From Planctomycetota bacterium (GTDB lineage: Bacteria; Planctomycetota; Phycisphaerae; UBA1845; UTPLA1), in assembly GCA_016235815.1 (NCBI GenBank), contig JACRIM010000048.1, forward strand, positions 1-64,000: a stretch of DNA of 64,000 bases. The letters run 5' to 3'. This document shows positions 45,362 to 51,968 of the stretch, in pieces. Under the pieces are notes generated by a model. It saw only the letters and a list, made by a program, of their open reading frames with translations, searched no databases and was not told where the DNA came from. Every line of letters starts with the position of its first letter. Position 1 is the stretch's first letter. Made by a program: the position numbers and the translations under genes.

Positions 45362-47053
45362 ATGAACCCCGCCGCCCTAACTCCACTTCAACTCGGCCTC
45401 ACGCTCCTCGCCTGCCTCGCGGCACTCGTGCGAGATGCCAACACGCAACCGCTGATTCCAGTCTGGATCACGACGCTCATTCAAGCACCCGCCCTCGCCT
45501 TCTGGTTGCACGCTCGCTGGGGCTGGTTCGGCCTCCGCATCCACGCCGAGCGCACGCATCACGGCCCGCTGACCGCACTCGTGTTCGCCGCCGCCGTCGG
45601 CATCGCCGTGTATCGCGGCTCGCTGGATCCATGGAACGTGGTCGTCGCCATCTATCTCGGCGGGCTCGCCTTCTTGGAGTGGGCCAAGCGGCGTTACGAA
45701 TCGCTCGAAGCCGCGATGGACAAACCCGTCGACGCGCTGCGTCTCATCATTCGCCCGTGGATCGTGTGCCTCATCGTCTTGACCATCGGCCTTGCACTCC
45801 CGCTCGCCACCAAATCAAGCGTCCCGGACTATCGCCACAACTTCCTGCTCCACATCCTCAACAGCGCCGTCACCGCGACGAGTTCCATTTGTCTCATCGG
45901 CACCAGCCCCTACAGCATCGCCGATGACTTCTCCCTCTTCGGCCACACCCTGATCATGCTCACCACCCTGCTCAGCGGCATGGCCCTCTCCGCGATCGGC
46001 CTCGCCATCGCCCGGCCGTTTCTCTCGCGACCGTTTTCGCTCAGCGCCATCTGGCAATGGATGATCGGCCTGCAGGCAATCGCAACGCTCGCCCTCGTAT
46101 TCGCATGGAGCACCACCGACGCACCGACCACCCTCGCGCGCCTTGCATGGAGCGCCGTCCACGTCGCCGACGCCACATGGAACACCGGCTACACCCTTCG
46201 CCCCAACGGGATGGCCGACTACCTCGCCAACCCATTCGTCTTCTCGATCATCACTACGCTCGCCATCATCGGTTCCATCGGAATGCCCATCGTCCTCGAT
46301 CTCATCTTGCCGCGGCGCCGAGATACAGACGCCGCGCCCTGGAAACCCTGGAAGCGCCTTCCCAATTGGGAGGCCGGCGCAGCGTTCCTCTTGCTGCTCG
46401 GCGTCGCCGGATTGCTCTTCCTTTTCGAAACGCGCGGATTCCTTCCGGAGAATCTCGCCTCCAGCCGCCCATTCGATCTCGGCTCCCCACAAGTGCCGCT
46501 CCGCGAAGAAGCGCAGCACGCCCCGCGCTGGCGCATGGCGGTCTTCGTCTCTGCCACGCTCCGCTCCACCGGTCTGCAGAGCATCCCACTGGTCGAAGGC
46601 ACCATCTCCTGGCCCAGCTACGCCGTCCTCCTCGTCGGCATGATCGTCGGCGGATCGGCCATGGGTGTCGCCGGCGGATTGCGCTCCAGCGCCTTCGTGC
46701 TCGGCGCACTGTGCCTCGTCCACCCGCGCCGAATGTGGAGCAATGAAGAAAACGCTGTCCGATGGCGAACACTACGAAGACTCGCGACATTAATCGTGGC
46801 ATATCTTCTGATCGCCGGCGCGGGCATCCTCGTCATGTATACATGCACCGCCGGCACCGCGCACGAACTCATCTTCGACACGATCGCCTCTTTCACCGGC
46901 GTCGGCCTCTCAACAAGCCTGTCGCTTCATTTGACGTGGATCGGTAGCCTGACGATGATCGGCCTGATGGTCGTGGGATGGTGGTATCCACTCCTGATCT
47001 GGTCGCGGATCGCCGACGATTTTGCATCGCTGTCGCCGCAAAGGAATTCATGA
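45362..47053 (+). CDS. TrkH-like cation transporter subunit (divergent)
   Basis: 563 aa, about twelve hydrophobic segments. Degenerate versions of the TrkH/KtrB pore segments can be seen: SAVTATSSICLIGTSPYSIA, SATLRSTGLQSIPLVEG, GGSAMGVAGGLRSSAF and IASFTGVGLSTSLSLHLTW. Some canonical Gly filter positions are replaced, so K+ selectivity is not assured. No TrkA/KtrA partner is adjacent. The ATG lies 8 bp from the divergent repressor's start and has no Shine-Dalgarno. The stop overlaps the next gene's start (ATGA). Confidence 0.75.
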   Translation: MNPAALTPLQLGLTLLACLAALVRDANTQPLIPVWITTLIQAPALAFWLHARWGWFGLRIHAERTHHGPLTALVFAAAVGIAVYRGSLDPWNVVVAIYLGGLAFLEWAKRRYESLEAAMDKPVDALRLIIRPWIVCLIVLTIGLALPLATKSSVPDYRHNFLLHILNSAVTATSSICLIGTSPYSIADDFSLFGHTLIMLTTLLSGMALSAIGLAIARPFLSRPFSLSAIWQWMIGLQAIATLALVFAWSTTDAPTTLARLAWSAVHVADATWNTGYTLRPNGMADYLANPFVFSIITTLAIIGSIGMPIVLDLILPRRRDTDAAPWKPWKRLPNWEAGAAFLLLLGVAGLLFLFETRGFLPENLASSRPFDLGSPQVPLREEAQHAPRWRMAVFVSATLRSTGLQSIPLVEGTISWPSYAVLLVGMIVGGSAMGVAGGLRSSAFVLGALCLVHPRRMWSNEENAVRWRTLRRLATLIVAYLLIAGAGILVMYTCTAGTAHELIFDTIASFTGVGLSTSLSLHLTWIGSLTMIGLMVVGWWYPLLIWSRIADDFASLSPQRNS

Positions 47054-48138
47054 CACGTCTCCGTTCATCTTCAAGACGCTTCGCGTTCGTCACACTCGCG
47101 CTGGCCGTGCTCACCGGCTGCCCCGCCAAGCCCGCCGATCAACCCACCGTTCGCGAGCGTTCGCGCGTCTCCATCGTCCGCGATCGGCCCGGCGACGTGC
47201 GCTGCGACGGCATCGGCCCCCTTCGCGGTTTCGCCAAGGGCCGGGACTGCACCTTCATGCACTGCCTCGAACTCGTCCTCGAAGCCTCAGGCCGCAAGAT
47301 CAACTACGACGAACTCATGGGCCTGTCCGGCATGGCCTTTCGCACCCAGTTCCGCACCGATCACTGGGATGTCGGCAACCCCGACCCGCTCGCCGGCGAA
47401 CCCGTCCTCGACATTCTCTTTCCCGCCATCGGTTGGGAGTACGAACTCCGCATCGTGAAGCAGGAAGACTACGCCGAGAAAGATGCGCTGTATCGCGCGG
47501 TCGCCAAGAGCATCGACACCGGTATCCCCGTCCTCGCCGCCAACATCATTCCACCCGAAGACTGGGGCCTCATCGTCGGCTATCGCGGCCCGCGCACCTG
47601 GCTCTGCCGTTCCTACAATGGCGACGCAGAAACCTCCGACAAACCCGCAACCGGCTGGCCGACTGCCACGCTTTTTCTGACAAGTAAAAAGTCTCGTCCC
47701 GACCCCCGCAAGATGCACTTCGAATCCATTCGCCGCGCGATTGAGATGTTCGATCGAAAGGCCGGTGGTTCGAACCTGATCGGCAAGAAAGCCCTCGAAG
47801 CCTGGGCCGAGGCCCTGCGCTCGCCGAAGGATCGCACCTACATCCACGCAAACTTCTGGACCTACGTCAGCCTCATCGATGCCCGCGGCGCGGCCGTGCG
47901 CTACCTCCGCATGATCGCCAAGGACTACGGCTCACGCGACCTTCACATCGGCATGGCCGCTGACTATTACGACAGCGAAGTCCGCCTCCTGCTCGACGGC
48001 ATGAACAACGTCCCCGCCGAACACACCTTCCCCGTCGGCCTCCCCCCCGCCGAATATCGCAGCAAACAAATCGACACCCTCCGCCAGGCAATCGCCCTCG
48101 AAGAAAAGGCCGTCGAGTCGCTCAAGAAGGCGCAATGA
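47050..48138 (+). CDS. Lipoprotein with BtrH/C39-like papain-fold region
   Basis: 362 aa. The signal peptide MTRLRSSSRRFAFVTLALAVLTGC has its lipobox Cys at 24. Residues about 72-220 (GRDCTFMHCLELVLEAS, DELMGLSGMAFRTQF, WGLIVGYRG) resemble the BtrH N-terminal/C39-like cysteine-peptidase fold. In that fold a Cys near the start of a helix and a later His act together. Here the Cys is in GRDCTF, and the expected His in the third motif is not evident, so catalysis is doubtful. The C-terminal 140 residues are helical. It is translationally coupled to the TrkH-like gene. Confidence 0.6.
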   Translation: MTRLRSSSRRFAFVTLALAVLTGCPAKPADQPTVRERSRVSIVRDRPGDVRCDGIGPLRGFAKGRDCTFMHCLELVLEASGRKINYDELMGLSGMAFRTQFRTDHWDVGNPDPLAGEPVLDILFPAIGWEYELRIVKQEDYAEKDALYRAVAKSIDTGIPVLAANIIPPEDWGLIVGYRGPRTWLCRSYNGDAETSDKPATGWPTATLFLTSKKSRPDPRKMHFESIRRAIEMFDRKAGGSNLIGKKALEAWAEALRSPKDRTYIHANFWTYVSLIDARGAAVRYLRMIAKDYGSRDLHIGMAADYYDSEVRLLLDGMNNVPAEHTFPVGLPPAEYRSKQIDTLRQAIALEEKAVESLKKAQ

Positions 48139-51143: not shown

Positions 51144-51899
51144 CTACTTCAACAACTTCTCGATCTCGGCCATCGTCTCCGCCGGATCGACGCGCAATTG
51201 CACGTGCGACGAGATATACCGCCACGCCACCTTCCCGTTCTTATCAATCAAAAAGTTCGCCGGCAGCGCAATCTCCCCGCGACCCATCGGTTCGTGAAAT
51301 AACAGGCCGTACTGTTTGATCACCTTCGCGCCTTCATCCGACACGATGTCGAACGGGATCTTGTATCGCTCCACCACCTTCTTCGAATCCTTCGTCGAGT
51401 CCGCGCTCACCGCGATCACCGCCCCGCCCGCATCCTTCAACTTCCGACTTACGTCTCCGAGACCCCGGAGCTCTGAGATGCAAAGCGGTCACCAATGCCC
51501 GCGATAAAAGACAAGCAACACCGGCCCCTTCCCTTTGTACGATGAAAGCGTCACCGGCACGCCGTCCTGATTCGGCAGCGTAAAATCAGGCAACAAGTCC
51601 GACGTCCGCGCAATCGCCTCCGCCTCCGGGAGCTTCATCAGTATCGTCAGCGATCCGATCAGCCCCAACCCGACAAACGCCGAAACCCCCGCGGCAATAA
51701 TCGTCCCCTTCGACCGCCGCTTCACCACGCCCCACACGGCCATCGCCATGCCAACGACCACCAACGCAATATTCGGCGCCGCCGTGTTGCGAATGAACGG
51801 AATATCCGTCAACAGAAAATACGACACCCCGCCCACTGCGGTAACGATCATGCCGTAGACACTGAGTTTGATGGAGGGTTTCTTAATGGGCTGATCCAT
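51144..51899 (-). CDS. Probable selenocysteine-containing redoxin (AhpC/TSA-like) with in-frame UGA
   Basis: 251 codons. Two membrane helices (about 11-60) precede a peroxiredoxin/thioredoxin-fold domain (LLPDFTLPNQDGVPVTLSSY). At LVFYRGHW the frame meets TGA (51491-51489) and continues in the same frame with PLCISELRGLGDVSRKLKDA, AVIAVSADSTKDS and LPANFLIDKNGKVAWRY. The TGA is residue 137, where homologues have the catalytic Cys (HWCPxC), giving U-x-x-C. Bases 51470-51455 form a SECIS-like hairpin. Sec incorporation is the simplest reading; a nonsense mutation is the alternative. The ATG at 51899 has AGGTG six bases upstream. A stand-alone start at Met 51440 would lack the active site. Confidence 0.82.
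51455..51470 (-). promoter_or_regulatory. Bacterial SECIS-like hairpin
   Basis: On the minus strand, CTCCG-GGGTCT-CGGAG gives a 5-bp perfect stem with a six-base loop GGGUCU. It starts 18 nt after the in-frame UGA, with the loop 23 nt away. E. coli fdhF has the loop AGGUCU at a similar distance, and the GU in the loop contacts SelB. Both loop sequence and spacing fit. Confidence 0.7.
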
Positions 51900-51968
51900 T
51901 GTTGCACCTCGCGCCGCGCCAAAACCTCGCGCACGTCTCGTCATTCATCGGACTCTAATGATATCGAC

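Follow-up and report, generated by a model that had tools for sequence, protein, structure and literature searches.

On the minus strand of the 64,000-nucleotide stretch of DNA analysed here (the window), a redoxin gene contains a TGA triplet at its active site, and the question was whether this codon is a stop or is read as selenocysteine (Sec). Translation from ATG 51899 to the TAG at 51144–51146 gives 251 codons with a single in-frame TGA (51491–51489), which is codon 137 in the context FYRGHW-U-PLC. Standard ORF calling splits the coding sequence in two: a 151-aa part that the TGA terminates, and a 98-aa part that begins at an internal TTG. The Pfam model AhpC-TSA (PF00578) was matched over residues 101–226 (E value 2.5e-33; 115.1 bits against a cut-off of 26), and this match runs through the TGA. 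A preliminary description had proposed a frame open on either side of one TGA, conserved redoxin sequence in both halves and a TGA within the HW-U-PLC of the redoxin active site; the translation, the Pfam match and the alignment of orthologues bear out these three points in turn. The features of the locus are collated in the table.

Features of the redoxin locus (positions in the window)
Feature	Positions	Strand	Basis
Selenoprotein coding sequence (assigned), 251 aa + TAG stop	51144..51899	-	translation, ORF calling, homologues
GAGGTG, Shine-Dalgarno-like, 5 nt before ATG 51899	51905..51910	-	sequence inspection
Predicted TM helix 1, residues 11-29	51813..51869	-	AlphaFold2
Predicted TM helix 2, residues 41-60	51720..51779	-	AlphaFold2
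Predicted TM helix 3, residues 64-87	51639..51710	-	AlphaFold2
AhpC/TSA (thioredoxin-fold) domain, residues 96-250	51150..51614	-	Pfam, AlphaFold2, Foldseek
In-frame UGA, assigned as the Sec137 codon of the W-U-x-x-C motif	51489..51491	-	conserved in 30/30 aligned orthologues
Cys140 codon, invariant partner of Sec137 (predicted selenenylsulfide)	51480..51482	-	alignment
Putative bacterial SECIS hairpin: CUCCG (51470-51466), loop GGGUCU (51465-51460), CGGAG (51459-51455)	51455..51470	-	synonymous constraint, pairing/covariation, folding

Homologues were collected at E ≤ 1e-20 from 101 genomes (the host's own and its relatives), of which 33 carried a homologue and 30 provided aligned sequences. 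Exactly one in-frame TGA occurs in all 33 homologue-bearing genomes, own genome included, and in each of the 30 aligned orthologues it falls in the identical alignment column; the 29 proteins aligned with the window protein are approximately 30–55% identical to it. Cys140, Trp136, Arg133 and Pro213 are invariant in the alignment, and W136-U137-x-x-C140 together with Pro213 is invariant across 31 sequences. Pairwise omega 3′ of the UGA was 0.07–0.29, indicating purifying selection, and was below the upstream value in every pair for which both could be computed. Beyond the near relatives, an active-site UGA was present in 26 of the 29 non-window loci fetched from a phylum-wide sample. UGA was described beforehand as an ordinary stop elsewhere, and several orthologues (L023, L024, L038–L040 and others) indeed have an active-site UGA in a gene that also terminates with UGA.

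The host genome (4.58 Mb in 60 contigs, 95% complete) was searched for the Sec machinery. All four components sought were found: a tRNA-Sec with the anticodon TCA (67.6 bits) and, by profile search, selB (309 bits, cut-off 242), selA (535 bits) and selD (378 bits). The proposal of recoding had been made to depend on selB and tRNA-Sec in particular, and both are present. The selD gene (contig C21:11582-12505; L018:1531) itself has one in-frame TGA (ANCAG-U-AGKLP) and probably encodes a selenoprotein, so that at least two genes of the genome would use the Sec system. The selB and selA genes adjoin on the window's own contig (C29:83776-87095; L009, L017), some 20 kb beyond where the window stops. 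Among near relatives selA is present in 32 of the 33 homologue-bearing genomes, but 89 of the 101 have it anyway, and the figure is uninformative when taken alone.

A hairpin with the loop GGGUCU had been placed 18 nt downstream of the UGA, and CUCCG-GGGUCU-CGGAG begins exactly there (51470–51455). The consensus for bacterial SECIS elements (bSECIS), as given in PMC13188914, comprises an apical loop of 3–9 nt, a G within the first two positions of the loop, a distance of 16–37 nt from the UGA and a minimum free energy (MFE) at or below −7.5 kcal/mol. The window hairpin, whose loop GGGUCU lies 23 nt from the UGA, agrees in loop size, G position and distance; its energy was −6.3 to −6.6 kcal/mol alone and −7.6 kcal/mol in a 63-nt context, and many relatives pass the −7.5 threshold. 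It is not the global MFE fold of the surrounding 63 nt, has a G27–U32 closing pair and contains GGGUCU versus AGGUCU in most close relatives; it is a slightly weakened copy of the relatives' hairpin. In an automatic bSECIS scan the window hairpin failed, and so did two others of the core set, those of L035 and L050. An Rfam scan of the window returned one tRNA only and no match to a SECIS family.

Constraint on the hairpin was evident at the codon level. Synonymous conservation peaks at codons +7 (CTC, z 6.8), +10 (CTC in 28 of 30, z 10.0) and +11 (GGA, z 6.5), with no other codon between −12 and +20 above z 4.1, and the three frozen codons are stem and loop positions of the hairpin. At codon +9 all glycines (29/29) are encoded by GGT or GGG and none by GGC, even though these genes most often encode Gly by GGC. 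Pairing of the hairpin was counted in 82% of cells, and its score for pairing plus covariation was above all shuffles (0/500 reach it), with the qualification that the shuffle ignores relatedness and that one slid register was near-equal (0.184 versus 0.186) with fewer paired cells. Compensatory exchange of C24–G35 for U–A occurred in two separate lineages (L026/L028; L047), and further relatives have A–U for G26–C33 (f85 family, L101) and G–C for C24–G35 (L101). The commonest hairpin loop among the homologues is AGGUCU; most close relatives share it, read in the identical frame (GGU CUN), with the SECIS element of E. coli fdhF, the window having GGGUCU. The family differs from fdhF in that its loop lies two codons further from the UGA (beginning at 23 nt versus 17 nt) and in that its stem is not that of fdhF. 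Synonymous constraint, compensatory changes and loss in Cys-containing relatives lacking selA (see below) support the assignment of the hairpin as a putative SECIS element.

In one subgroup (L041, L043, L046, L048–L050, L104, L108, L110, L111 and L113) the stem has moved 4 nt upstream (e.g. GGAGCUC-GUY-GGGCUCC), and the protein motif is mostly ELVGL (also ELVEL) in place of ELRGLG; in this subgroup the SECIS element appears to have shifted its place within the gene. RNAalifold gave a near-zero consensus for the unsplit alignment because of the upstream stem in the ELVGL/ELVEL members L041, L043, L046 and L048–L050, and the hairpin was scored by counting the pairs of a named structure in place of the RNAalifold consensus. 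Nine distant UGA members (L095, L098, L099, L100, L103, L106, L107, L109 and L115) match neither hairpin register; some, L098 and L099 among them, form other hairpins, and in others none is evident.

Exchange of Sec for Cys was followed in a phylum sample of 392 genomes, 86 of which match the family profile; 40 genomes were chosen from those matches. The selA gene was present in 24 of 26 UGA-form genomes versus 3 of 14 genomes in which the frame is uninterrupted (Fisher p 1e-5 for a non-random sample, relatedness being ignored and the Cys codon confirmed in fetched loci only). The two UGA-form genomes without selA are assemblies of 67% and 84% completeness. Within one genus (g206), G211 (L093) has the UGA, a perfect CUCCGAGGUCUCGGAG hairpin and selA, and G242 (L097) has UGC, with hairpin and selA both absent; in the tree they pair as sisters (SH-aLRT 99). 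The same loss was found in G403 (L096; Cys form without hairpin and selA; assembly 79% complete); among the Cys forms of f61, hairpin and selA have both been lost. Elsewhere, L051 encodes a full-length Cys form, and its genome has no SelB scoring above the cut-off; the L051 mRNA nonetheless forms another strong hairpin, probably by chance. The Cys homologues with which comparison had been proposed exist (L051, L096, L097). The association between Sec/Cys and selA is not absolute, since L105 (G153:C12:41805-42539) is a full-length Cys form despite selA in its genome; here Sec and Cys may have been exchanged with the machinery retained, or L105 may be another paralogue.

These observations weigh on the readings that involve no selenium. 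Were the UGA a real stop, the locus would hold a truncated membrane protein followed by a separate downstream ORF, or a decaying pseudogene, in keeping with the 151-aa and 98-aa ORFs of standard calling; given the shared UGA of the 30 aligned orthologues, purifying selection on both sides of it, a catalytic W-x-x-x-C and an invariant Pro that straddle it, and the UGC, not another stop or a deletion, that stands there in selA-less genomes, such a reading is very improbable. The chance that TGC or TGT was misread as TGA in sequencing or assembly is practically negligible: the window does come from a 60-contig assembly, but the TGA recurs in 30 independent assemblies, including the single-contig G002, G013, G014, G022 and G047, and its presence in 30 independent species disposes of the doubt previously attached to 51489–51491. 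Conservation of the UGA and low omega together mean, therefore, that neither a pseudogene nor a sequencing error can explain the gene. Decoding as Cys or Trp without selenium, by suppression or a variant code, draws on the fact that the frame alone is silent on the residue inserted; it deserves very little credence, as UGA terminates other genes, including members of the redoxin family, the genome encodes a UCA-anticodon tRNA-Sec with the full Sec machinery, relatives have, 3′ of the UGA, a hairpin of SelB type whose loop is that of E. coli fdhF, and the f61 Cys forms occur without hairpin and without selA. The selenoprotein interpretation of the preliminary description is supported by the Sec machinery, the conserved UGA and the SECIS evidence.

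A model computed by AlphaFold2 from the alignment (pLDDT 93.6, pTM 0.87) has three N-terminal membrane helices (residues 11–29, 41–60 and 64–87) instead of the two originally counted. That the protein is a membrane-anchored Sec redoxin holds; that this is unusual does not, the whole conserved subfamily having the same build. When charges were summed over 31 homologues, the TM2–TM3 loop contained 108 Lys/Arg versus 14 Asp/Glu, and the stretch after TM3 21 versus 29. From this positive loop and the positive-inside rule we infer an extracytoplasmic location for the redoxin domain.

The selenoprotein reading as a whole, which we hold to be very likely, comprises a Sec137 inserted by means of SelB and SECIS, a three-helix anchored redoxin on the outer face and Cys140 as the resolving residue. 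The frame, the conserved UGA, the full Sec machinery, the constraint on the hairpin and the link of Sec/Cys exchange with selA are established computationally; topology, reductase role, substrate and donor are its deduced parts. SelB carrying Sec-tRNA(UCA) would read the hairpin 18 nt past the UGA, and selenocysteine would be inserted at residue 137. The three N-terminal helices would anchor the protein in the cytoplasmic membrane with its AhpC/TSA-fold (thioredoxin-like) domain at the outer surface, where Sec137 would attack a disulfide or peroxide substrate, Cys140 would resolve the Sec137 adduct as a selenenylsulfide, and a donor would then reduce the Sec137–Cys140 selenenylsulfide.

The main rival on the enzymatic role is a selenoprotein that is a true peroxiredoxin (peroxide reductase) and not a thiol–disulfide oxidoreductase. 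Among solved structures the best matches are peroxiredoxins, 2cx3 being one of them; Foldseek retrieved BcpB, Bcp4 and AhpE (E 3e-12, target-normalised TM score approximately 0.73–0.87 for the top hits), and in phmmer alignments with 2cx3 and 2ywn Cys140 aligns with the peroxidatic Cys. The likeness to peroxiredoxins (BCP/PrxQ, AhpE) thus extends to the overall fold and to the Cys at this position, but in the same alignments the pattern PxxxTxxC with its catalytic Arg is replaced by RxxxUxxC with Pro213 for the Arg. Three of the four active-site residues differ (Arg133 for Pro, Sec137 for Thr/Ser, Pro213 for Arg), all three being invariant in the family, and the best-scoring NCBIfam model is ResA (NF002854; 65.6 bits versus a curated cut-off of 170). 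A peroxiredoxin role is possible on these grounds, yet rather unlikely. We favour a thiol–disulfide reductase role of the ResA/TlpA type, in which W-U-x-x-C (U137-P-L-C140) and Pro213, with ResA as the best NCBIfam model, would point to Sec137–Cys140 selenenylsulfide chemistry on exported disulfides. ResA/TlpA-type enzymes have a cis-Pro at the position matching Pro213. Shared with these oxidoreductases (NF002854 and others) are W-C-x-x-C there for W-U-x-x-C here, membrane anchoring, the invariant Pro213 at the cis-Pro-like position and probably an exported domain; the differences are three membrane helices, Sec and a score under the ResA cut-off. NF040769 (SelL-related redox protein), whose redoxin domain is related to a Sec redoxin, scored 51.3 bits versus a cut-off of 120, and no NCBIfam model reaches its cut-off for the window protein.

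Selenoproteins are routinely mis-annotated, the UGA being taken as a stop. The present family is widespread, is halved by ordinary gene calling and falls under every curated NCBIfam cut-off. Its Sec/Cys pairs within one genus (G211/G242) are natural material on which the advantage of Sec over Cys could be tested in an exported membrane redoxin. The RNA recoding signal constrains codons, and probably residues, near the active site, with a loop shared with distant E. coli. We consider it somewhat probable that the family is an uncatalogued subfamily across much of one phylum, consisting of a three-helix anchored extracytoplasmic W-U-x-x-C oxidoreductase in which an E. coli-like SECIS element has partly dictated ELRGLG and is lost with selA upon change from Sec to Cys.

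As to the literature, Prx-like PF00578 selenoproteins with UXXC instead of TXXU have been known since the Sargasso Sea survey (PMC1088965), and PF00578 UxxC selenoproteins also appear in PMC2398784 (Sargasso Sea/GOS surveys) and in the review PMC13188914. Selenoproteins and Sec machinery have also been described from genomes of planctomycetes (PMC4807772). The window protein resembles the Prx-like UxxC/UxxU selenoproteins in its AhpC/TSA fold, UxxC for TxxU, Sec/Cys exchange and a bacterial SECIS (PMC1088965, PMC2398784, PMC13188914), and is set apart by the three-helix N-terminal anchor as judged from these published descriptions only. The available text of the three papers mentions no three-helix anchored UxxC member, most subscription journals lying outside the search. 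The kind is therefore already known; the anchored subfamily is undescribed in the literature searched and may be merely a new member of it.

The neighbourhood was inspected for an operon partner or electron donor conserved across loci; no neighbour family occurred in more than 3 of 20 loci, leaving aside the two halves of the gene itself and a five-locus cluster at its own position. Positions 46978–48138 (+) of the window encode a 386-aa protein that matches no Pfam family, and two further genomes (L138, L140) have a homologue of it close to their redoxin gene; another two window neighbours are common to one or both of these loci.
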